Below, piece after piece: positions 48,527 to 61,447 of a stretch of DNA of 64,000 bases (the first letter of the stretch is position 1; each line of letters starts with the position of its first letter). The translations under genes and the position numbers were made by a program. The notes under the pieces are model-generated. The model did not search any database. It had not been told where the DNA came from and was given only the letters and a program-made list of their open reading frames with translations. Source of the DNA: Paracoccus fistulariae (GTDB lineage Bacteria; Pseudomonadota; Alphaproteobacteria; Rhodobacterales; Rhodobacteraceae); assembly GCF_028553785.1 (NCBI RefSeq), contig NZ_CP067136.1, positions 1,894,001-1,958,000 on the forward strand, given 5' to 3'.

Positions 48527-49513
48527 CTAATCCCCGTCCTGAGAGTTGAAGCCGACGGCAATGCCAAGCGGGGTTCCGATCTCGGCTTCGATGGCCTCCT
48601 GCATGGCGCGAACCGCCTGTTGCACCTGTTCGGCATGCAGCCGCGCCTGCGGCTGCGTCAGGTTCTGAAAGCCCGGATCGTCGATCCGTTCGGCAAGCGC
48701 GTGAATTCGCGCCGCTGCCGCATCCGTTTCGGGCAGATCCGCATCGGTCAGCCGATGCGCCAGCGCCTGCGCGGCATCGACCGACAGCAGCACATTGCGC
48801 AGGGAACGGCCCGAGCGCCAGGCCTCGGCCCGGGACGGGCGCGGCTGCTGAAACGTGCCCATCGGACGCCCAAGCCGCTGATCGGCGGTGAATTCCAGCC
48901 CCGACAGAAGTTGCGTGTAAAGCGCGCGCAACGCCTCGGACTGGTCCAGATAGGTGGTGTTGCCGGGGGCACCCGCGCTGCGCAAGGTCGCCGCGAAATC
49001 CTGCTGCCAGGCCTGGTCCAGCGCCACCGCCTGATCGGCCAGATCGACACTGACCGCCCGAACCAGCGCGCAGCTATAGCTGTCCGGGCCATAATCGGCG
49101 AAATCCGGATCGAAGATCAGCATTTCCAGCGCGAACAGCCCGCGCGCCGCAATCGAGACCTGCGAATAAAGCGCGGGATCGAAAGCGGCCGGATCCTGAT
49201 CGGCGATGAATTGCGACAGGCTGCGCTGCGTGAACCCGCGCTTGTCGGGCCAGAAGGCGATAGAAAGCGCCCCGGTCTCGGACGGGCCAAGGCGCAGGTC
49301 GGCAATCGTCATCCAGGCGTCGAATGTCGTCTGATAGGCCGGGGCGACGGCATCGGCGCGGCAATCCTGCGCGGCGGTTTTCTGCAACGCCTGCGCCGCG
49401 TCGGCAAAGCCTTCGAAGCCGGGCAGGATATGGCGCTGCAACGCCTGATCCACATCGGCCCATATCGGGGTTGCCAGCGTCAGCGCGGCAAGGCAGGCGG
49501 CAAGATGTTTCAT
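48527..49513 (-). CDS. Imelysin family periplasmic protein
   Basis: 328 residues with a signal peptide (AACLAALTLATPIWA). The imelysin/M75-like helical domain spans about 20-310 (QTTFDAWMTIADLRLGPSE, then GLFALEMLIFDPDFADYG). The classical GxHxxE motif seen in the first imelysin of this operon is replaced by RGLFALE, retaining the Glu only; so iron binding differs. Overlaps the DHOR gene by 4 nt. Confidence 0.88.
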   Translation of the reverse strand: MKHLAACLAALTLATPIWADVDQALQRHILPGFEGFADAAQALQKTAAQDCRADAVAPAYQTTFDAWMTIADLRLGPSETGALSIAFWPDKRGFTQRSLSQFIADQDPAAFDPALYSQVSIAARGLFALEMLIFDPDFADYGPDSYSCALVRAVSVDLADQAVALDQAWQQDFAATLRSAGAPGNTTYLDQSEALRALYTQLLSGLEFTADQRLGRPMGTFQQPRPSRAEAWRSGRSLRNVLLSVDAAQALAHRLTDADLPETDAAAARIHALAERIDDPGFQNLTQPQARLHAEQVQQAVRAMQEAIEAEIGTPLGIAVGFNSQDGD

Positions 49514-51066
49514 AGACTCTCCAGATATCGGATCAGGGCGGCGCGATCCTCGGGCGGCATTTCGACCACTGCATCGCGGGCGGCCTGCGCCTCGCCACCA
49601 TGCCACAGCACGGCTTCAAGAAGCGAGCGGGCGCGCCCGTCATGCAGGAAATAGCTGTGCCCCGACACGGTTTGCGTCAGCCCGATGCCCCAAAGCGGCG
49701 CGGTGCGCCATTCGCGGCCATCGGCGCGGCCTTCGGGTCGGTTATCGGCCAGATCCGGGCCCATGTCGTGCAGCAGCAGATCGGTATAGGGCCAGATCAG
49801 CTGAAAACTGGCCGGGTTTTCACCTTGCAACCGGTTCGTCACAAAGCTGGGCCGGTGGCAGGCGGTGCAGCCGGTTTCGTAAAACACCTGCTTGCCGCGC
49901 AGGACCTGCGGATCGTCCAGATCGCGCCGCGCGGGCACGGCCAGATTGCGGCTGTAGAAGGTCACCAGATCCAGCGCCGCCTGATCGATTTCGAACCCGT
50001 CCTGTTCGGGATCACCGCCATCCAGCGCGGCAAGACAATCGGCCTGCGCGGCGGTGCATTCGCCGGACCCTGCCGGGTGCAGCGGGTTCGAAATGCCGAT
50101 ATCGCCCGAAAAGGCCGAGGCGCTTTGTTCCAGCACCGTCGGATTGCCCGCCTTATGCCCGAAACGGCCCAGCATCGGCTGATCATGGACCTGCGACCAG
50201 ACGATCTGCGGATTGCCGGAGATTCCGTCGCCATCGGCATCGTCCGGGTCTGCCCAGGACAGGATATCCTGCGCGGGGATCGCCTCCAGCAGGCCCATGC
50301 CGATCATCTGCGGCGCGACACGCGGCGACAGCATCGCATCGGGATGCAGCGGGCCATAGCCCAGATCGGCAGCGCGATAGGTCGGGCGGCGCAGTGTGGC
50401 GACCTCCTGCCCTGACAGCGGCACCTGAAATTCCTCATAGCTGATGTCCAGCCGATATTCCGCGGCATGGCCGGGCAGGCTGAAATCCTGCAACTGCAGG
50501 CCATAGGTCGGTTCGGGCGCGGTCGGATGCGTGCCCTCGATATAATTGCGGATCCTGTCCCGGTCAGCATCCGCCATCGGGATCGAGACGCGCAGGAACA
50601 TCGACACGGCATTGTCCTCGGGGCCTTCGGGCGGATGGCCGCGCCCATCCTTCAGATGGCAGCGCTGGCAGGACCGCGCATTATAAAGCGGTCCCAGCCC
50701 GTCCGATGCGATGGTCGAGGCCGGGGGCGACACCCAGATCCGGCGGAACATGCCATTGCCGACCTTGAAATCCAGCTCCTGCTGGAAGCTGAGATTACCG
50801 GCGGGCTGTGAAAAGGCATCTGCGGTGGCGCGGGCACGCACGGTCTGCGCGCCGCCCGGATTTTCCTCGAAGGGCCAGGGGGCCGAAAAATCGGGCTTCG
50901 GGGTGGTGACGGTGGCGATGCGGTCGCGCTCTTCGGCGGTCCGGGGAATGACATCCAGATGCGGGTCGCGCAGATCGGCCCAGGGCGCGGCGGGATCGGC
51001 CTGCGCGATCTGAACGTAACAGGCGGCCATCAGCATGGCCGCCAAAGCTGTCTTTATCGGCTTCAT
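49510..51066 (-). CDS. Di-haem oxidoreductase (DHOR, DUF1111)
   Basis: 518 residues, periplasmic (signal peptide ALAAMLMAACYVQIAQA). Two haem c motifs: CQRCH at about residue 135 and CTACH at about residue 397. COG3488 'thiol oxidoreductase' family, related to MauG-type di-haem peroxidases, associated with iron-regulated imelysin operons. It may handle electrons for ferric/ferrous interconversion; this is inferred from context. Confidence 0.9.
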   Translation of the reverse strand: MKPIKTALAAMLMAACYVQIAQADPAAPWADLRDPHLDVIPRTAEERDRIATVTTPKPDFSAPWPFEENPGGAQTVRARATADAFSQPAGNLSFQQELDFKVGNGMFRRIWVSPPASTIASDGLGPLYNARSCQRCHLKDGRGHPPEGPEDNAVSMFLRVSIPMADADRDRIRNYIEGTHPTAPEPTYGLQLQDFSLPGHAAEYRLDISYEEFQVPLSGQEVATLRRPTYRAADLGYGPLHPDAMLSPRVAPQMIGMGLLEAIPAQDILSWADPDDADGDGISGNPQIVWSQVHDQPMLGRFGHKAGNPTVLEQSASAFSGDIGISNPLHPAGSGECTAAQADCLAALDGGDPEQDGFEIDQAALDLVTFYSRNLAVPARRDLDDPQVLRGKQVFYETGCTACHRPSFVTNRLQGENPASFQLIWPYTDLLLHDMGPDLADNRPEGRADGREWRTAPLWGIGLTQTVSGHSYFLHDGRARSLLEAVLWHGGEAQAARDAVVEMPPEDRAALIRYLESL

Positions 51067-51101: not shown

Positions 51102-52370
51102 TTACTGAAAGACCGCCGAAGGGTTGTCCAGACTGTCCGAGCCCTCGATCGCGATGCCATCCAGTTCCAGCGCCGTCACCACCCGCTCGATCGAGCGGGT
51201 CTGCGCGACCAGCGCATCGACGCCGCCCATGATCAGCGCCTCGCCTTGCGAATTGCCGCGTTCCAGCATCTGGTCATAGGCGAAACCGGCCTCGGAGGCG
51301 GTCTTGATCCGGGCCAGCGCCTTCATCGTGTCGGACAGGCGCGCTTTCATCTCGGCATCCAGTTCGGGGTTGCCCTCGGCCACCAGATCCGACAGCGACG
51401 CGCCGGACACGACCGATCCGTCGATGCGCATATAGTCGCCCAGATAGACATTCTGCACGCCCAGCCCGTCATAGTAATGGCTGTTCGGCGTGTTGTCCGA
51501 GAAGCAGTCATGCTCTTCCTCGGGGTCGTTCAGCATCAGGCCAAGGCGCATCCGCTCGCCCGCCTGTTCGCCATAGGACAGCGAGCCCATACCGGTCAGC
51601 ATGGCCGACAGGCCCGCCGATTCATCCCCGGTCAGCGCGGTGCGGGCGGCGCCACCTTCGGCCCATTGCGCCGTCATCCATTCCAGATCGGACACCAGCA
51701 GCTGCGATGCCGCCGCCAGATATTCCGCGCGGCGGTCGCAATTGCCATTGGTGCAGGCCTCGCCCTGGGCGTAATCGGTCCAGGGCCGGTTGCCCGCGCC
51801 CTTGCCGTGACCGTTCAGATCCTGACCCCACAGCAGAAATTCGATGGCGTGATAGCCGGTGGCGACATTCGCCTCGATCCCGTCGGCCTCTTGCAGCGTG
51901 TCCTGCAGCAGGGCGGGCGTGATCTCGGTCGCATCGATTTCCGTGCCCGACAGGGTGAAGCGGGGATTGGCAATCACGTTCAGCGTGGCGAACTGGTTTT
52001 CGTCGCTGGGCCCGCCATAGCTGCCATCGACGTAATCGATCAACCCCTCATCCAGCGGCCAGGCATTCACCCGGCCTTCCCAGTCATCGACGATGGCATT
52101 GCCAAAGCGGAACACCTCGGTCTGCTGATAGGGCACGCGCGCCGCGATCCAGGCAGCCCGCGCCGCCTGCAGATTTTCGGCCGAGGGCGCCTCGATCAAC
52201 GCATTCACGGCCTCTTCCAGCGTCCGGGCAGAGATCATGCTGTCCTCATACCCCGCCTGCGCGATATCGGCATAGGTCTCCAGCACCTCGGCCGCCGTCT
52301 GCGCCATGGCCGCATTGCCAAGGCCCGCGGCAAGGGCTGTCACGCTGATCCCGAATGCGATTCTGTTCAT
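51102..52370 (-). CDS. ICMP/IrpA-like imelysin peptidase family protein
   Basis: 422 residues; signal peptide VTALAAGLGNAAMAQ, then two imelysin helical bundles. The conserved GxHxxE motif is present as GYHAIEFLLWGQD, together with DDWEGRVNAWPLDEGLIDYV and the cysteine pair in ACTNGNCDRRAEY. The family (M75, COG3487) is iron-regulated; peptidase activity is unproven, iron binding is supported for several members. It leads the ICMP-DHOR-imelysin-DUF1513 operon. Confidence 0.92.
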   Translation of the reverse strand: MNRIAFGISVTALAAGLGNAAMAQTAAEVLETYADIAQAGYEDSMISARTLEEAVNALIEAPSAENLQAARAAWIAARVPYQQTEVFRFGNAIVDDWEGRVNAWPLDEGLIDYVDGSYGGPSDENQFATLNVIANPRFTLSGTEIDATEITPALLQDTLQEADGIEANVATGYHAIEFLLWGQDLNGHGKGAGNRPWTDYAQGEACTNGNCDRRAEYLAAASQLLVSDLEWMTAQWAEGGAARTALTGDESAGLSAMLTGMGSLSYGEQAGERMRLGLMLNDPEEEHDCFSDNTPNSHYYDGLGVQNVYLGDYMRIDGSVVSGASLSDLVAEGNPELDAEMKARLSDTMKALARIKTASEAGFAYDQMLERGNSQGEALIMGGVDALVAQTRSIERVVTALELDGIAIEGSDSLDNPSAVFQ

Positions 52371-52701: not shown

Positions 52702-54468
52702 TCAGGTGATGTGGCCCAGCACCTCACCAAAGCCCAGAACGCTGCCCGGCTGGACGCCGTGGCGCAACTGCCCGGCACGATGCGCCTCGACACGGGTTTC
52801 CATCTTCATGGCCTCCATGATGGCAATGACATCGCCCGCCGCCACCTTGGCCCCATCCTCGACCTGCCAGGCCGTCAGGGTGCCGGGAACCGGGGCGGTC
52901 AGGGCGCTTTCATCCGCCTCTGGCGCGGGTTCGGCCGTGCTCTGGGCGACGGGTGCCGCTGACAGCAGGCCCGGGGGCAGGCCAAGCTCGTGCCGTTTGC
53001 CGTCGATCTCGATCCCGACGCGCAGCAGATCCGGCATCTGCGCCGGGGTGACGCGGGCATGAGGGGCCACGGCACGGGCAAGCGCATCGGCGAAATCGGT
53101 CTCGATCCAGCGGGTATGGACGCGGAATTCGCCATCCTCGGCCAGAAAATCCTCGGCCTCCAGCACGGCGCGGTGAAAGGGCAGCACGGTTGCCACGCCA
53201 TCAATGGTGAATTCAGCCAAAGCGCGGCGCGCACGCTGCAAGGCCTCGGCGCGGGTGGCGCCTGTGACGATCAGCTTGGCCATCATGGAATCGAAACTGC
53301 CCGGAATGACCGAGCCGCTGCGCACCCCGCTGTCAACGCGAATGCCGGGGCCTGCGGGTGCGTCGAATTGCGTCACCGGGCCGGGGGTCGGCAAGAAGCC
53401 ACGGGCGGGATCTTCGGCATTGATGCGAAATTCGATCGCATGACCGCGCGGCGCGGGCACGTCATCATTCGCCAACCTTGCCCCGCGCGCCACGGCGATC
53501 ATGCCGCGCAGCAGGTCGATGCCGGTGGTTTCCTCAGTCACAGGATGTTCGACCTGCAGGCGGGTATTCACCTCCAGAAAGGAAATCGTGCCATTGGCCG
53601 ACAGCAGATATTCCACCGTGCCCACGCCGCTATAGCCCGCATGGGCGCAGATCCGGCGGGCGGAATCGTGGATCCTTTCGCGCTGTTCATCGCTGAGGAA
53701 CGGGGCCGGGGCTTCCTCGACCAGCTTCTGGTTGCGGCGCTGAAGCGAGCAGTCGCGGGTGCCGATCACCTTCACGGTGCCGTGGCGGTCGGCCAGCACC
53801 TGCGCCTCGATATGGCGGGGCCGGTCCAGAAACTGTTCGATGAAACATTCGCCGCGACCAAAGGCGGTCAGCGCCTCTCGGGTCGCGGAATCGAACAGTT
53901 CCTCGACCTCTTCCAGACGCCAGGCCACCTTCATCCCGCGGCCGCCGCCGCCAAAGGCCGCCTTGATCGCGATGGGCAGACCGTGTTCGCGCGCAAAGGC
54001 CAGCGCGTCCGCCGCGCTTTCGACCGGTCCGGGCGTGCCCGCGACCAGCGGCGCGCCCACCGCCTCGGCGATGCGGCGGGCTTCGATCTTGTCGCCAAGC
54101 GCCTGAATGACCTGCGGATCGGGGCCGATCCAGATCATCCCGGCATCGCGCACCGCCTGAGCGAAATCGGCGCGTTCGGACAGAAAGCCATAGCCCGGAT
54201 GAACGGCATCCGCGCCAGCTTTTCGGGCGATGGCAATGATCTTGTCGGCGTCCAGATAGGTCTCGGACGGTTTTTCACCGCCCAGAGCATAGGCGTGATC
54301 GGCCATCTGCACAAACATCGCGTCGCGGTCGCTGTCGGCATAGATGGCGATGGAGTCGATGCCTTCGTCACGGCAGGCACGGATAATGCGCACTGCGATT
54401 TCGCCCCGGTTTGCGATCAGAAGACGCGTCAGGGGCTGCAAGTCAGGGCCTTGGGTAAACAGGGTCAT
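52702..54468 (-). CDS. Biotin carboxylase-BCCP fusion protein
   Basis: 588 residues. N-terminal biotin carboxylase with [23 protein letters not shown]-grasp glycine loop [12 protein letters not shown] and catalytic [18 protein letters not shown]; linker; C-terminal biotinyl domain with the acceptor Lys555 in MEAMKMET. This is the alpha-subunit layout of acyl-CoA or geranyl-CoA-type carboxylases and of urea carboxylase, but no acyl-CoA carboxyltransferase lies beside it. Instead the upstream gene, 7 nt away, is a fused PxpB-PxpC (KipI-KipA), the domain that serves as carboxyltransferase in urea carboxylase. A biotin-dependent 5-oxoprolinase or related amide carboxylase is inferred. Confidence 0.9.
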
Positions 54469-54475
54469 GGTCGCC

Positions 54476-56047
54476 TCAATTCGGATCAATGGGGGTGAAA
54501 TCATGTTCAGCCGTGAAACGGATCCGCGCGCCGGGCGGGATCTGACCGGCCAGGTCCAGCGCCTGCGGCAGCAGGGTGGCAATGACCGGATAGCCGCCAG
54601 TCAGCGGATGATCGGCCAGAAACAGCACCGGCTGGCCGGAATGCGGCACCTGTATCGCGCCGGTTTCCGTGCCTTCCGAGGGCAGTTCAAGGCTGTCCTC
54701 GCGGGTCAGGGGCTGATCACCTTCCAGCCGGATCCCAACGCGCGAGGATTGCGGGCTGACCCGCCATTCCTGCGTCAGAAAGCGGTCGATCATCTGCGGC
54801 GTGAACCAATCCGCGCGCGGGCCAAGGGTCACGGGCAAGGAGACCAGATCATCCGGTCCGGGCAGATCGGGCACAGGCTCTGCTGCGGCGCCCGCCACGC
54901 TGCGCGCCCCGGCGGGCGACAGACGCGCGCCAGCCGTCAACGGATCGGGGCCGATGAAGGCCAGCGTATCGGTCGCGGCAGAGCCAAGGACAGGCGCAAC
55001 CCTGAAGCCGCCACGCAGCGCCAGATAGCTGCGCATCCCGCGCCGTGGCGAGTGGATCAGCAACTCGTCGCCCGCATCCATCGCAAAGGCGCTGCCCGTT
55101 GCGACAGAAAGCGTCTGCCCCCCGGCGATCAGGTCCACCCGGTCCGCCGCGCCGGTCAGGGCCAGCGTCACGGCGGCATCGGCGCGCAGCCGGACCGGGC
55201 CCATGGTGATTTCCAGCGCAGGCGCGGACGCGGGATTGCCGACCGCCCGGTTCGCGCGATGCAGCGCGGCACGGTCCAGCGCGCCAGAGGCGGAAACCCC
55301 CTGCCCGCCCTGCCCCGGTCGCCCGTCATCCTGAAAAACGATGGGAAAGGCCGTCGAAAGAAGGGTCAGCCCGGCCGCCCCCTGTTCTGCGGGCGGTGAG
55401 GTCACCGGATGGGTCTTGGCCTGCCCCTCGACAAAGCGCGCCCGCCGCCCCGGCTGCAGCACAGCGGGCGGATCGCGCGACAGATCCCACATCGGCAGTT
55501 TCGTCGTACCGATCAACTGCCAGCCGCCGGGCGTATCCTGCGGATAGATCCCGCAAAAGCGCGACGCCAGCGCGACCGAGCCCGCAGGGATCCGGGTCCG
55601 GGGCGATTGCCGACGCGGCAGATCGAAGCGCGGGTCGTCGCAGGTCATATAGGCAAAGCCCGGCGCGAAGCCGCAAAAAGCCACCTGCCATGTCGCGGCC
55701 TGATGCGCGGCGATGACCTCGGCCACGGTCAACCCCATCAGGCTGGCCACATCCTCCAGATCCTGACCATCATAGGTCATGGGGATTTCGACCACATCGG
55801 CGGCGCTGTCGCCCTGATCCCGCGCGGCAAGGGGGCGGTGGCGGTCACGGATCGCGGCGGCCAGCGCGGCATCGGCGCCGATGCCCGGCGCCGTGCGGAT
55901 CATCAGGGTCCGGGCCGCCGGGATGATCTCGGCAATGCCCGCGATCGGATCTGCAAGCAAGGCATCGAACAGCGCCAGCGTCTGTTCCAGATCCTCAAGC
56001 TCGACCAGCAGGCTGCGCGGACCGACGGGCAGGAAACGCATCGTCAT
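54476..56047 (-). CDS. 5-Oxoprolinase subunits B and C, fused (KipI-KipA)
   Basis: 523 residues. About 1-225 is the KipI/PxpB domain ([41 protein letters not shown]). About 230-520 is the KipA/PxpC domain ([35 protein letters not shown]). In E. coli and B. subtilis these are separate genes; fusion is also known from urea amidolyase-type proteins. With PxpA it hydrolyses 5-oxoproline to glutamate using ATP. ATG at 56047 overlaps the upstream stop (ATGA) and has GGTGG before it; a GTG at 56056 is the alternative. Confidence 0.92.
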
Positions 56048-56829
56048 ATCTGCCACCGGCTGTCAGGAATATCGGTGATGAACATGTGTCCGGGGGCATG
56101 TGTGATCGCAAAGGGCGGCCTGGATGCCATGACCGCCGCCTGCGGGGTCACGCCGCAGGCCCAGAAGACCGGCACCTCGCCCGGATGGATCGCGACCGGA
56201 TCACCGAAATCAGGCTGCGTCAGATCCGTGATCCCCAGGGCCTCGGGCGCACCGATATGGATGGGGGCACCATGCACCGCCGGGAAACGGCCCGAGATCA
56301 TGGCCGCCTCGGCCACGCGATCGGCGGGGATCGGACGCATCGAGACCACCATATTGCCATGCAGGCGCCCTGCGGGGCGGCAGGCGCGGTTGGTCAGAAA
56401 CATCGGGACATTGCGGCCCTGGGCGATATGGCGCACCTCGATCCCGGCCTGCTGCAACGGCGTTTCGAAGGTGAAAGAGCAGCCGATCAGAAAGGTGACC
56501 AGATCGCCCTGTTCTGCCCAGAGATCGGTGACATCCGGCAGGCTGTCCACCAGTTCGCCATCGCGCCACACGCGATACAGCGGGATATCGCGGCGCAAAT
56601 CGGCATCCGGGGCCAGTGACGTGCGGAAGTCGCCCGGATCGGTCACATCCAGGATCGGGCATGGCTTGGGGTTGCGCTGCCCGAACAGCAGGAAATCCCA
56701 CGCCCAATCGCGTGGCAGCGAGATCATGTTGCATTGCGTGAAACCGGGCGCCATGCCTGCCGTGGGGGCCACGGCACCGTCGCGACAGATCAGGCGGGCG
56801 GCGCGGGCCGTTTCGGGATCGGGCAGCAT
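56044..56829 (-). CDS. DUF1445 putative hydro-lyase (YcsI-like)
   Basis: 261 residues of the UPF0317/DUF1445 family, related to D-glutamate cyclase. Conserved [41 protein letters not shown] and the C-terminal [13 protein letters not shown]. In mammals the related D-glutamate cyclase converts D-glutamate to 5-oxo-D-proline and back; linkage to pxp genes makes a similar 5-oxoproline step plausible. Overlaps pxpA by 1 nt (TGATG). Confidence 0.9.
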
Positions 56830-57599
56830 CAGCCTGCCTCCGGCGCGAAGGGGGCGACTGTCACACCGGCCGCGATCAGCCCCTCGCGGATGTGCTGTGC
56901 CATCTGGACCGCACCGGCACTGTCGCCATGCACGCAGATGCTGTCGGCCTTCAGCGTCAGGGTCGAGCCGTCAATCGCCTCGATCACGCCCTCGGTGGCC
57001 AACCGCACCATGCGCGCCGCGACCATCTTCGCATCATGCAGCACCGCACCAGCTTCGCGCCGCGAGACCAGATGACCCTGCGGCGTATAGGCGCGATCGC
57101 CGAAAGCCTCGGCCACGGTGGCCAGCCCGGCCTCTTGCGCGCGCGACAGGATCGGCGCGCCCGCCAGCCCCATCAGGATCAGGCCGGGATCGACCTCGCG
57201 GATCCCGGCAATCACCGCATCGGCCTGACGCGCATCACCGGCGATGGTGTTATACAGCGCGCCATGCGGCTTGACATAGCTGACGCGCGTGCCCGCCGCT
57301 GTCGCCAGCCCCTGCATCGCGCCAATCTGATAGATGACATCCGCCGTCAGCTCGGCCGAGGTGACATCCATCGGGCGGCGGCCAAAGCCGACACGGTCGG
57401 GATAGGACACATGCGCCCCGACCGCGACCCCGCGCGCAGCGGCCTGACGAAGCGTGGTCAGGATGCCCTGCGGATCGCCCGCGTGAAAACCGCAGGCCAC
57501 ATTGGCAGAGCTGACAATATCCAGCATCGCCTCGTCGTCGCCCATTTTCCATGCGCCATAGCCTTCGCCAAGGTCGCTGTTCAGGTCGATGGAAGTCAT
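56829..57599 (-). CDS. pxpA: 5-Oxoprolinase subunit PxpA (LamB/YcsF family)
   Basis: 256 residues. Family start [24 protein letters not shown], then [41 protein letters not shown], and C-terminal SICVHGD. Metal-binding-like His and Asp residues in the [11 protein letters not shown] and CVHGD motifs are conserved. Acts with PxpB and PxpC on 5-oxoproline. It follows the transporter gene by 61 nt, with a strong hairpin in the gap. Confidence 0.96.
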
Positions 57600-57630
57600 A
57601 GCACTCTCTATCTCCGGTGGCTGTGGACAA

Positions 57631-57653
57631 GGCGGCCCGGCAATCGGGCCGCC
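57631..57653 (-). promoter_or_regulatory. Intercistronic hairpin, transporter to pxpA
   Basis: GGCGGCCCG at 57631-57639 pairs perfectly with CGGGCCGCC at 57645-57653 over a 5-nt loop. It lies between co-directional transporter and pxpA genes and lacks a T-run, so it may act as a partial terminator or an mRNA-stability element and set different expression of transporter and enzymes. Confidence 0.6.
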
Positions 57654-57660
57654 TGCGGGA

Positions 57661-58896
57661 TTACACGCTCAAGAAAGCAAAGATCGGGCCGATGGATTTG
57701 AAGCCCATATACCATGTCAGCACGCAAACGATGGCGCTGGCAATCAGCAAGGGCCGGTTATAGCGGTGCCCGCCCATCAGGTCGGACCGCGCAAAGCCGA
57801 CATAGGTAAAGATCGACAGGCCGATGGGCAGGATCAGGCCGTTGAAGCCGCCGACAAAGACCAGAATGGCTGCGGGCGCGGTGCCCATCATCAGATAGAC
57901 CAGCAGCGAAAAGCCGATAAAGATCACCGTCGCGATATTCCGGCTGCGCTCGTTCAGGCGCTGGAAGACGTTAATGAAGCTGACCGAGGTATAGGCCGCC
58001 CCGATGACCGAGGTGATGGCCGCCGCCCACAGCACCACGCCAAAGATGCGCATGCCCCATTCGCCCAGGGCCGCGGCAAAGGCCTGTGCCGCCGGGTTGG
58101 CCGCCTGGCTGGACAGATCCAGCGTGACGCCCGATGCCACGACGCCAAGGATCGCCAGGAACAGCACAAAGCGCATGACGCCGGTCATCGCGATGCCCGA
58201 CAGCGCGGCATTGGTGACCGCACGCAGGTTTTGCGGCCCGACCAGCCCCTTGTCCAGCAGCCGGTGCGCGCCGGAATAGGTGATATATCCGCCGACCGTG
58301 CCGCCCACGATGGTGGTGATGGTGGCAAAGTCGATCACCTCGGGAAAGATGGTCTGACGCAGCGCATCGCCCACCGGCGGGTTCGAACTGAGCGCGACGA
58401 ACACCGTCATGATCATCATCAGGATACCCAATCCGATGATCGCCCGATCCAGAAGGAAACCGGCCCGCTGCGACAGAAAGACCCCGATGGCCAGCAGGGC
58501 CGAAATCGCGCCGCCGATCTTGGGATCCAGCCCGATCATGGCATTCAGGCCCAGCCCGCCGCCCGCGATATTGCCGACATTGAAGGCCAGACCGCCGATC
58601 ATCACCAGAATGGCCAGCAGATATCCCGATCCCGGGATCGCGGCATTCGCCGTTTCGGACGCATTGCGCCGCGTCAGCGCGGTGATCCGCCAGATATTCA
58701 GCTGCACGACAAAATCAATGACAATCGAGGCCATGATCGCAAAGGCAAATGCGGAACCCAGCTTGGCCGTGAACGTGGCCGTCTGGGTGATGAATCCCGG
58801 CCCCACGGCCGAGGTCGCCATCAGAAATATCGCGGCCAGAAATCCGCCCCGCATCACCTCGGTCGGGATGGGGGACGTCTGTGGGGTTTGGCTCAT
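57661..58896 (-). CDS. NRAMP-related transporter (YcsG-like)
   Basis: 411 residues, about eleven helices, NRAMP fold. Metal-transporting NRAMPs have DPGN in helix 1 and MPH in helix 6; here the helix-1 motif is GPGF (32-35) and helix 6 reads [14 protein letters not shown], so the manganese/iron site is not conserved. The orthologue in B. subtilis, YcsG, lies in the ycsF-ycsG-ycsI-kipIA locus. Uptake of 5-oxoproline or a related acid is a reasonable inference; direct evidence is lacking. First gene of the operon. Confidence 0.85.
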
Positions 58897-59185: not shown

Positions 59186-59836
59186 ATGACCCCAGCCACC
59201 TCGCCCAGCCTTGCCGAAGAAACCGCCGCCAGACTTCGCGAGCAACTGGCCAGCGGCAGCTTGACGCCGGGGCAACGCCTGTCCGAAGCCAGACTGGCGG
59301 CCGAGCTTGGCATCTCTCGCAACACGCTGCGCGAGGTGTTCCGCCTGCTGACCCGCGAGGGTATCTTGCGGCATGAGCCCAATCGCGGTGTCTTTGTCGC
59401 CACGCCCTCGATGGCCTCGGTTCTGGATATCTTCCGCGTCCGCCGCCTGATCGAGGTTCCGGCGCTGGCGCAAGCCTGGCCCCGGCACGACGCGGTCGCC
59501 CGGATGCGCGCCGCGGTCGAGCGTGCGGAAAGCCTGCAGGATGCGCAAGACTGGCAGGCCATCGGCAGCGCCAATATGGAATTCCACACCGCCATCGTCG
59601 CATTAAGTGACAGCCCGCGCCTGACGGCCTTTTTCGCGCAGATCATCGTCGAATTGCGCCTGGCCTTCGGCCTTCTGGCCAATCCAGAGCATCTGCACCG
59701 CCCCTATATCCAGCAGAACCGGGCGATCCTGACCCGACTGGAAGAGGGCGACCCGAAAGGCGCCGCCCAGATGCTGCAGGATTATCTGGAACAATCCGAA
59801 CGCGCGGTCATGGCCGCTTTCGCACGAATTTCCTGA
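59186..59836 (+). CDS. GntR family regulator, FCD type
   Basis: 216 residues: N-terminal winged helix-turn-helix (about 8-75; LSEARLAAELGISRNTLREVFRLLTREG) and C-terminal FCD ligand domain with metal-binding-type residues in FHTAIVALSDSPRL. Divergent from the 5-oxoproline operon across 290 nt; therefore the likely local regulator, with 5-oxoproline or a related acid as the possible ligand. Both points are inferred. Confidence 0.9.
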   Translation: MTPATSPSLAEETAARLREQLASGSLTPGQRLSEARLAAELGISRNTLREVFRLLTREGILRHEPNRGVFVATPSMASVLDIFRVRRLIEVPALAQAWPRHDAVARMRAAVERAESLQDAQDWQAIGSANMEFHTAIVALSDSPRLTAFFAQIIVELRLAFGLLANPEHLHRPYIQQNRAILTRLEEGDPKGAAQMLQDYLEQSERAVMAAFARIS

Positions 59837-59895: not shown

Positions 59896-59983
59896 TGGGA
59901 AAGACGCGTCCGGTCCCGGGAACCGCGCCGCGTCGTGGAATGGCGCGCGCGGGCATGAGCGGCGCGATATGAGGGAGAGGATC

Positions 59984-61447
59984 ATGGATCAGTTGGAAGC
60001 ATTTCTAGGCCAGATCGGCGGTATCGTCTGGGGGCCATTTCTGTTGATTCCGCTGCTGCTGGGCACCGGTCTTTATCTGACCATCAAGCTGGGCGGCATT
60101 CAGTTCGTGCGCCTGTGGCCCGCGCTGCGCCTTGGCCTGATCAAGCGCAGCGACGATACGGATGACGGCGATATTTCGCAGTTTCAGGCGCTGACAACGG
60201 CCATGGCGGCGACCGTCGGCACCGGCAATATCGTCGGCGTGGCCACCGCGATCAGCACCGGCGGGCCGGGCGCACTGTTCTGGATGTGGGTCACGGCGCT
60301 GCTGGGCATGGCCTCGAAATATAGCGAGGCGTTTCTGGGCGTGCGTTTTCGCACCACCGATTCAGCGGGCGAAAAGAACGGCGGCCCGCAATATTATCTG
60401 GAACGCGGGATCCCCGGCGGGCTGGGCAAGTTCCTGGCCATCAGTTTCGCCATCTTCGCGGTCTGCGCCTGTTTCGGCATCGGCAATTTGACGCAGGGCA
60501 ATTCGATCGCCTCCAACCTGGACAGCAGCTTTGCGATCCCGACTTGGATCACCGGGCTGATCCTGTCGGGTCTGACGCTGGTGGTGCTGATCGGCGGGAT
60601 CAAATCCATTGGCCGCGTCACCTCGGCGCTGGTGCCTGCGATGATCCTGTTCTACGTTTTGGGCGCGCTTTACATCCTGCTGGCCAATATCAGCGCGGTT
60701 CCCGCCGCGCTGGGGCAGGTCTTCAGCGAAGCCTTTACCGGCAGCGCGGCGATTGGCGGCTTTTTCGGCTCGACCATCATGATCGCGGTGCAATATGGCG
60801 TCGCGCGCGGCATCTTTTCGAACGAATCCGGCATGGGATCGGCGGCCATCGCGGCGGCCTCGGCCCAGACCACGCATCCGGTGCGTCAGGGTCTGGTGTC
60901 GATGACCCAGACCTTCATCGACACAATCATCGTTGTCACCTGCACCGGGCTGGTCATCATCACCACCGGCGTCTGGCACGAGATCGACCCGGCCACCGGC
61001 GAACGGATCTCGGCCGCGATCATGACGGGTCAGGCCTTCAGCCACGGATTGCCGGGGCAGTGGGGCCATTGGATCGTCACCGTCGGGCTGACGCTGTTTG
61101 CCTATTCCACCATTCTGGGCTGGGCCTATTACGGCGAACGGAACGTCGAGCGGCTTGGCGGACGCGGCGGCGTCATGCCCTTCCGCGTGCTGTTTTCGCT
61201 GGTCGTCTTTATCGGCTGCACGGTGAAGCTGGGCGTGGTTTGGAACTTCTCGGATGTGATGAACGGGCTGATGGCGATTCCGAACCTGATCGGGTTGCTG
61301 CTGCTATCCGGGCTGATCGCCCGCGAAACCCGCTTCTACCTGCAGCATGACCCCAAGCTGGAGGCCAATGCCGCCGAGATCGAGGCGTTCATGCAGGGCC
61401 AGTCCAGCTGGGAGGAATGGAAGCGCGGCGAAGAACGTCAGGCCTGA
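59984..61447 (+). CDS. Sodium:alanine symporter family protein (AGCS)
   Basis: 487 residues, about eleven membrane helices. Family markers: ALTTAMAATVGTGNIVGVATAI, GGPGALFWMWVTALLGMASKYSEA, GGPQYYLERG, FSNESGMGSAAIAAA. Imports alanine or glycine with Na. ATG at 59984 with GAGGGAGAGG immediately upstream. It lies downstream of the 5-oxoproline regulator but is separated by a hairpin and has its own terminator, so probably an independent unit. Confidence 0.93.
   Translation: MDQLEAFLGQIGGIVWGPFLLIPLLLGTGLYLTIKLGGIQFVRLWPALRLGLIKRSDDTDDGDISQFQALTTAMAATVGTGNIVGVATAISTGGPGALFWMWVTALLGMASKYSEAFLGVRFRTTDSAGEKNGGPQYYLERGIPGGLGKFLAISFAIFAVCACFGIGNLTQGNSIASNLDSSFAIPTWITGLILSGLTLVVLIGGIKSIGRVTSALVPAMILFYVLGALYILLANISAVPAALGQVFSEAFTGSAAIGGFFGSTIMIAVQYGVARGIFSNESGMGSAAIAAASAQTTHPVRQGLVSMTQTFIDTIIVVTCTGLVIITTGVWHEIDPATGERISAAIMTGQAFSHGLPGQWGHWIVTVGLTLFAYSTILGWAYYGERNVERLGGRGGVMPFRVLFSLVVFIGCTVKLGVVWNFSDVMNGLMAIPNLIGLLLLSGLIARETRFYLQHDPKLEANAAEIEAFMQGQSSWEEWKRGEERQA

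Follow-up and report, generated by a model that had tools for sequence, protein, structure and literature searches.

A pxp operon with its own biotin carboxylase in Paracoccus fistulariae as a candidate biotin-dependent 5-oxoprolinase

We analyzed a stretch of 64,000 nucleotides from the alphaproteobacterium Paracoccus fistulariae (contig NZ_CP067136.1, positions 1,894,001 to 1,958,000), hereafter called the window, to which the coordinates below refer unless stated otherwise. It contains a minus-strand operon (52702–58896) encoding a transporter, PxpA, a DUF1445 protein, a PxpB:PxpC fusion (PxpBC) and a biotin carboxylase carrying its own biotin carboxyl carrier protein domain (BC-BCCP). With a probability of roughly 55%, this operon encodes a biotin-dependent 5-oxoprolinase. 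The partnership of BC-BCCP with PxpBC is well supported; we infer in addition that the two form a complex in Paracoccus, that 5-oxoproline is their substrate, that PxpA carries out the subsequent step and that a neighboring regulator acts as a sensor. In the proposed reaction, BC-BCCP would spend ATP and bicarbonate to load CO2 onto biotin at Lys555, and the swinging carrier domain would hand it to the fusion protein. Acting as the carboxyltransferase, the fusion would place CO2 on the lactam nitrogen of 5-oxoproline, and in the resulting N-carboxy compound the ring amide should be more easily hydrolyzed. PxpA would then open the ring to N-carboxyglutamate, which would lose CO2 to give glutamate. 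The net reaction would be 5-oxoproline + ATP + 2 H2O -> glutamate + ADP + Pi, with CO2 as a catalyst, and this would equal the known ATP/ADP/Pi balance of 5-oxoprolinase. N-carboxylation followed by opening through PxpA is probably the most economical chemistry for this set of genes.

The order of the five genes given in the initial annotation was confirmed to the base. The first gene (57661–58896) encodes an NRAMP/APC-fold transporter of the YcsG/PxpT kind (PF01566, E-value 6e-22). It is followed by pxpA (56829–57599; 256 amino acids, LamB/YcsF family, PF03746, E-value 3e-100, NF003814 above its cut-off), the proposed ring-opening hydrolase, and by a putative accessory protein of the DUF1445/D-glutamate cyclase family (56044–56829; 261 amino acids, PF07286, E-value 2e-69, NF003969 above its cut-off). 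The stop codon of the latter overlaps the start of the PxpB:PxpC fusion (ATGA), which comprises 523 amino acids from that ATG (54476–56047) and is the proposed carboxyltransferase, with CT_C_D (PF02682, E-value 1e-62) and CT_A_B (PF02626, E-value 5e-78) domains, to which model and fold matches were added. Thus, the PxpA, PxpB and PxpC family domains are all encoded in one operon. The matches of PxpB (TIGR00370) and PxpC (NF045499) fall below the NCBIfam cut-offs and that of the PxpA subfamily above; the nearest relatives of the fusion carry Paracoccus protein names. After the TGA stop of the fusion, 7 nt precede the ATG of the gene for BC-BCCP (52702–54468; 588 amino acids; PF00289, PF02786, PF02785 and PF00364), an AccA3-type alpha subunit. 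This gap, as well as the biotinyl lysine, had been claimed before, and both are present: the biotinyl domain spans residues 523–586 (52711–52902, PF00364, E-value 9e-13) and contains Lys555 as the lysine of the MK pair in EAMKM (codon at 52804–52806). In comparison to Escherichia coli AccC, 24 of 27 positions, which we take to be the active site and its neighbors, are identical, the exceptions being Gln for K202, Asn for H236 and Leu for I287; the residues for ATP, bicarbonate and biotin are therefore intact. The closest match of BC-BCCP in PDB is AccA3 (E-value 3e-215). The cut-off of the urea carboxylase model TIGR02712 (1303.85 bits) is reached neither by BC-BCCP (508.8 bits) nor by PxpBC (137 bits).

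Conserved neighborhoods were examined for the best 80 of at least 583 confirmed relatives of BC-BCCP in named genomes. PxpBC lies directly upstream on the same strand in 61 of these loci, namely in all 56 from proteobacteria (20 alpha-, 19 gamma- and 17 betaproteobacteria) and in five from actinomycetes; the 19 loci without Pxp belong to 18 actinomycetes and one unassigned record. A pairing seen this often, in 61 of 80 loci, is more than chance. A full PxpB:PxpC fusion was found in 59 of the 61; in the other two (L038, L047) the matches begin less than 100 bases from the end of the locus. PxpA is encoded upstream in 59 Pxp loci, a DUF1445 protein in 25 and a transporter in 26. An acyl-CoA carboxyltransferase gene was detected in none of the 61 Pxp loci in contrast to 14 of the 19 others (two queries gave the same counts), although some flanks are short, 13 and 2 loci, respectively, being cut to less than 15 kb by contig ends. 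The initial annotation had stated that no acyl-CoA carboxyltransferase is present, which holds locally, as none is encoded in the operon. The GntR/FCD regulator gene next to the window's operon (59186–59836, plus strand; PF00392, PF07729) is divergently oriented; 49 of the 61 Pxp loci contain a homolog, as does none of the 19 others. This gene, the commonness of the arrangement and a second biotin-linked pxp cluster of the host (described below) go beyond what had been noted earlier.

Next to this conserved pairing, a bookkeeping of possible partners was made for the host genome, in which profile searches gave six biotin carboxylase (BC) and four PF01039 matches. AccC adjoins AccB at 743–745 kb (both named from position and size), and a chain of 1218 amino acids at 1229 kb has the size of a pyruvate carboxylase. 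Two further BC genes lie 2.6 kb from a carboxyltransferase frame of 520 amino acids (307/310 kb, resembling propionyl-CoA carboxylase, PCC) and 2.0 kb from another such frame (1159/1162 kb, resembling methylcrotonyl-CoA carboxylase, MCC), and AccA and AccD account for two short matches to PF01039. This leaves two BC genes, one in the window and one at 1389 kb; both adjoin PxpB/PxpC, and PF02626 matches nowhere else in the genome than beside these two. For the BC-BCCP of the window, the host thus offers no other obvious partner. A PF01039 beta subunit, as the partner of an AccA3-type alpha subunit, is absent from the operon, and the four matches in the genome fit PCC-, MCC- and acetyl-CoA carboxylase (ACC)-type enzymes; BC-BCCP may nevertheless share one of these four carboxyltransferases. 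Ten further genomes with an operon of the window type were checked for BC and PF01039, with full gene assignment in two (G046 and G038). Each of these two has two BC genes, and their PF01039 matches are of AccA/AccD size only.

The second biotin-linked cluster of the host (L131:7186-11491; G000:C1:1387186-1391491) encodes PxpA, BCCP, BC, PxpB and PxpC as separate proteins. Its PxpB has K148, a urea-carboxylase-like Lys, together with F167 and Q180, and the cluster may act on another substrate than the window's set does. L131 and its relatives thus have in common with the window a biotin-linked pxp set, but differ in the separate BC and BCCP, in the Lys of PxpB and in their grouping in a clade with urea carboxylase.

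A physical precedent for the partnership is given by the PDB entry 9yx5 (released 2025-11-26), which by its title is a long chain acyl-CoA carboxylase complex of Mycobacterium smegmatis with bound MSMEG_0435-MSMEG_0436. In sequence alignments, both the PxpB:PxpC fusion and BC-BCCP match chains of this entry; going by title and chains, a physical complex of AccA3 with PxpB/PxpC homologs exists. The function of this contact was not found in the openly licensed papers of PubMed Central (PMC) that were searched. In both systems an AccA3-type BC-BCCP goes together with PxpC/PxpB homologs of the same wider clade, but the mycobacterial alpha subunit serves an acyl-CoA carboxylase, whereas that of the window is dedicated and PxpB and PxpC are fused. 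Trees were built as quick searches (LG+G4) with support from the SH-like approximate likelihood ratio test (SH-aLRT) only. In a PxpB+PxpC tree of 128 rows, in which 7 of the 61 Pxp loci from named genomes are represented, the window type forms one clade of 25 rows (SH-aLRT 99) inside a clade of 48 rows (SH-aLRT 98), the other 23 members of which are all actinobacterial. Out of 128 wide loci, eight were left out of this tree because their PxpB stretch was not usable, namely L307 and seven of the ten urea carboxylases that had been fetched. In a tree of 78 rows, the M. smegmatis pair falls together with three of the actinobacterial members. Likewise, BC-BCCP of the window type shares a single clade of 42 rows (SH-aLRT 100) with actinobacterial AccA3-type subunits, separate from the host's AccC and its pyruvate-, propionyl- and methylcrotonyl-type carboxylases. 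As PxpBC nests among actinobacterial and BC-BCCP among AccA3-type proteins, both subunits show the same kinship.

To see how far the arrangement extends, PxpB/PxpC loci were surveyed using PF02682, which matched in 81 of 199 Pseudomonadota genomes. All 78 matches outside the window that are not of urea carboxylase length were fetched, along with 10 of the 34 that are. By neighborhood, 58 of these loci lack a carboxylase, 11 have BC-BCCP, 9 have a separate BC and 10 are urea carboxylases; BCCP adjoins the separate BC in eight of nine loci, and the ninth (L176) ends at a contig end. Within PxpA, 24 columns are at least 93% conserved in every one of three classes (carboxylase-free, window type and separate BC). 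How often the carboxylase accompanies pxpBC fusions had been proposed as a survey: in the Pseudomonadota sample it always does (10 of 10 fetched fusions plus the window), and one locus (L150) has BC-BCCP beside unfused PxpB and PxpC. As a general rule, however, the association fails, and fusion was rejected as a sure sign of a carboxylase, since the fused actinobacterial loci L279 and L295 have no BC nearby and Thermus thermophilus TTHA0988 is also fused, with Gln at PxpB residue 167. A match occurs in 27 of 119 actinobacterial genomes; 40 loci were fetched, leaving out 7 of 31 matches of one scan and 3 of 20 of another, and BC-BCCP lies beside PxpBC in six of the 40. Three actinobacterial loci (L268, L269 and L270) have the order PxpB-PxpC-BCCP-BC-DUF1445-PxpA, with Gln167 and a BC of its own clade; here biotin carboxylase may have become linked to Pxp independently, for a third time.

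Two residues of the window's fusion, F167 and R148, are apparently key to PxpB; residue numbers follow the 526-codon open reading frame of the fusion. Residue 167 is Phe or Tyr in all 72 window-type rows of the PxpB alignment, in all six BCCP/BC clusters of the Lys type and in all three aligned urea carboxylases (of 10). Of the 58 carboxylase-free Pseudomonadota rows, 48 have Gln at this position and a single one has an aromatic residue (L177, from the clade of the six clusters). Gln is also the residue of E. coli, Bacillus subtilis, Pyrococcus horikoshii and T. thermophilus; M. smegmatis has Phe. The PxpB of Corynebacterium glutamicum was sought through the published operator, which matched in 2 of 397 genomes, both larger than 9 Mb and therefore taken as not being C. 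glutamicum, with their loci not inspected. Gln180 was rejected as a biotin marker, as it is present in E. coli YbgJ and B. subtilis KipI as well. The locus L177 (G198:C6) has a PxpB of the Lys-type clade and gave no BC or BCCP match within its 16 kb; its genome, G198, carries in addition one set of the window type and one without a carboxylase. Taken together, conserved neighborhood, partner bookkeeping in the host, co-nested trees, 9yx5 and residue 167 lend good support to the earlier proposal, in which PxpBC would serve the biotin carboxylase as its carboxyltransferase.

In comparison to known systems, PxpABC of B. subtilis, E. coli and C. glutamicum shares with the window the PxpA, PxpB and PxpC families and an NRAMP-like transporter, and the C. 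glutamicum system also resembles it in the GntR-type regulator. The window differs in its fused PxpB:PxpC, in the dedicated BC-BCCP and in F167 (Gln in E. coli and B. subtilis). Urea carboxylase (KlUC/DUR1,2; PDB 3va7, 5i8i) likewise has BC, BCCP and a CT_A_B + CT_C_D carboxyltransferase (a proposed one in the window), with an aromatic residue at PxpB position 167 and Gln at 180, but is one chain, whereas the window has two proteins in another order. The hydrolase that follows is allophanate hydrolase with urea carboxylase, in contrast to PxpA in the window's operon. In the carboxyltransferase of Kluyveromyces lactis urea amidolyase, K1605 very probably acts as the essential general base (PMC5770610); it was mapped to PxpB position 148 by sequence alignment only. 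This position is Lys in the six BCCP/BC clusters and the three urea carboxylases but Arg in the window. Of the initial interpretation, the partnership is well supported; the Arg that replaces the proposed general-base Lys in 72 of 72 window-type rows speaks against a simple copy of urea carboxylase.

The substrate would be 5-oxoproline judging from the context of family, transporter and regulator. The transporter homolog PxpT of C. glutamicum is needed for growth on 5-oxoproline (PMC13274462), and the window's transporter would import 5-oxoproline (or Mn2+). PxpR of C. glutamicum binds 5-oxoproline with a dissociation constant of 726 nM (PMC13274462); the window's GntR gene is placed like pxpR, and its product is possibly a sensor of 5-oxoproline.

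However, several observations weigh against a biotin-dependent 5-oxoprolinase. B. subtilis and C. glutamicum use 5-oxoproline with the help of PxpABC encoded in operons that lack a carboxylase (PMC13274462), so the family as such does not need biotin. Co-purified PxpB and PxpC are reported to hydrolyze ATP unaided (PMC8453981), and in the published model, which is an assumption, PxpBC phosphorylates 5-oxoproline (PMC13274462). The transporter homolog YcsG of B. subtilis imports Mn2+ (PMC10448178). Regarding the residues, Arg148 is present in 57 of 58 carboxylase-free rows as well as in all 72 of the window type, which at this position therefore resembles the presumed biotin-free enzyme. Gln167 is found in 6 of the 41 tree rows with a carboxylase beside PxpB (L140, L158, L186, L268-L270). 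Conversely, 24 actinobacterial loci without an adjoining carboxylase have an aromatic residue 167, together with Arg148 (L287, a single PxpC-PxpB frame, L306, of the Lys type and near a contig end, and L307, a single frame, are excluded from this count); we take these 24 to use a shared AccA3, for which 9yx5 is the sole support. Furthermore, residue 167 changes just twice on the tree, giving one or two independent pairs, too few to test, so that there is next to no independent replication of its association with biotin. Finally, two genomes (G198, one of the 11 Pseudomonadota genomes with the window type, and G217) have both the window type and a carboxylase-free set, and in these the substrates of the two forms may differ.

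This coexistence fits the alternative that survives best, although we consider it unlikely: the same machine would act on another cyclic amide or ureide (5-oxo-D-proline, hydantoin or another lactam), which PxpA would open, and 5-oxoproline would be handled elsewhere. The second biotin-linked set in the host points in the same direction, and the adjoining DUF1445 protein, being of the D-glutamate cyclase family and recurring in the 25 relatives mentioned above, points to D-forms. In addition, PxpA of the window type differs from others at S8, I46, V64, D78, D87, I119 and Q125. Nevertheless, the context of transporter and GntR gene matches the 5-oxoproline system of C. glutamicum, and 10 of the 11 Pseudomonadota genomes with the window type lack a Gln-type (mostly carboxylase-free) set, as expected if one substitutes for the other. 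A mutual exclusion of the two forms was rejected as not significant (one shared genome, 3.3 expected, P 0.11, with three Gln-type loci that have a BC beside them counted as carboxylase-free).

Less probable again is that PxpABC works without biotin, by phosphorylation of 5-oxoproline with ATP as is assumed for B. subtilis, and that the co-transcribed BC-BCCP feeds the housekeeping acetyl-CoA carboxyltransferase or a different acyl-CoA carboxylase. PxpABC without a carboxylase is more frequent (58 of 78 fetched loci, those of urea carboxylase length aside) and works in vivo, PxpB and PxpC are reported to hydrolyze ATP when co-purified (PMC8453981), and an AccC-like or separate BC (with or without BCCP) lies beside Gln167-type PxpB in the six loci listed above. 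On the other hand, no carboxyltransferase was found nearby in 61 of 61 loci, the other BCs of the host each have their own partner, G046 and G038 likewise speak against it, homologs form a bound complex (9yx5), and the window's residue 167 is shared with biotin-linked forms. KipI has been described as controlling a phosphorelay in B. subtilis. That PxpB/PxpC homologs bind AccA3-type subunits to control acyl-CoA carboxylation, with the operon's BC-BCCP as a decoy or sensor, is highly improbable: 9yx5 is indeed titled as a long-chain acyl-CoA carboxylase complex to which such a pair is bound, but the proteobacterial operon has a dedicated alpha subunit with intact catalytic residues and no acyl-CoA partner nearby, and PxpA (59 of 61 loci) and the transporter (26 of 61) accompany it.

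The proposed enzyme may be the same as one described earlier. The two-component 5-oxoprolinase of Pseudomonas putida is reportedly the work of Seddon, Li and Meister. Its component A, in which dimers of a 64-kDa and a 51-kDa subunit form a hexamer, has 5-oxoproline-dependent ATPase activity, and its component B (82 kDa) is required for amide hydrolysis (PMC8453981). For seven Pseudomonas loci of the window type we predict, with crude starts, 60.5–62.1 kDa for BC-BCCP, 55.6–57.6 kDa for PxpBC and 26.5–27.4 kDa for PxpA, which as a trimer would have 80–82 kDa. Subunit masses are thus similar, and both enzymes consist of a 5-oxoproline-dependent ATPase and a coupling hydrolase (proposed in the case of the window), although the 51-kDa subunit is about 10% below the predicted mass of PxpBC, which again counts against our reading. 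PxpB:PxpC fusions are common in Pseudomonas, and P. putida is not named among the 120 proteins listed. PxpABC has been described as possibly related to the P. putida enzyme (PMC8453981) and traced to a Pseudomonas enzyme (PMC13274462); the assignment of component A to BC-BCCP + PxpBC is our own and is offered as a lead. The wider proposition, that biotin-dependent N-carboxylation by PxpBC with ring opening by PxpA is a second way to hydrolyze an unstrained lactam, occurs in Alpha-, Beta- and Gammaproteobacteria and Actinomycetes (many of the latter with the shared AccA3 as the donor) and accounts for the P. putida two-component enzyme, is put forward tentatively, and we hold it with less confidence than the reading of the operon itself.

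Within the openly licensed PMC literature, titles and abstract openings gave no biotin-dependent PxpABC, and exact phrases like "5-oxoproline carboxylase" were unmatched. Lactam opening that depends on bicarbonate has a precedent in caprolactamase, which was found not to be similar to PxpABC (PMC8453981). Lactiplantibacillus pentosus has an extra BCCP and BC pair and also pxpB and pxpC, which are present there and not in its neighbors; its authors treat the two pairs separately, and their adjacency is not stated in the portion of the source used here (PMC12427679).

If the proposed function is true, the label "5-oxoprolinase subunit" spans two chemistries, one biotin-free and one driven by carboxybiotin, and a single PxpB position helps to separate them. 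The PxpBC fold would gain a clear biochemical role, which would explain the mycobacterial PxpB/PxpC homologs bound to AccA3, and glutamate recycling would be tied to the supply of biotin and bicarbonate. It would also provide a biotin route to mild lactam opening, alongside the bicarbonate-dependent caprolactamase, and a pointer to the genes that may encode a classical enzyme, the 5-oxoprolinase of P. putida.

Beside the GntR gene, a frame resembling an AGCS symporter, judged by eye, lies at 59969–61447 on the plus strand; none of the 80 related loci gave a match to it, and it is thus outside the conserved set. On the minus strand at 51102–52370 and 49510–51066, an imelysin-type-like protein and a di-heme cytochrome-like protein (CxxCH) were recognized, also by eye.

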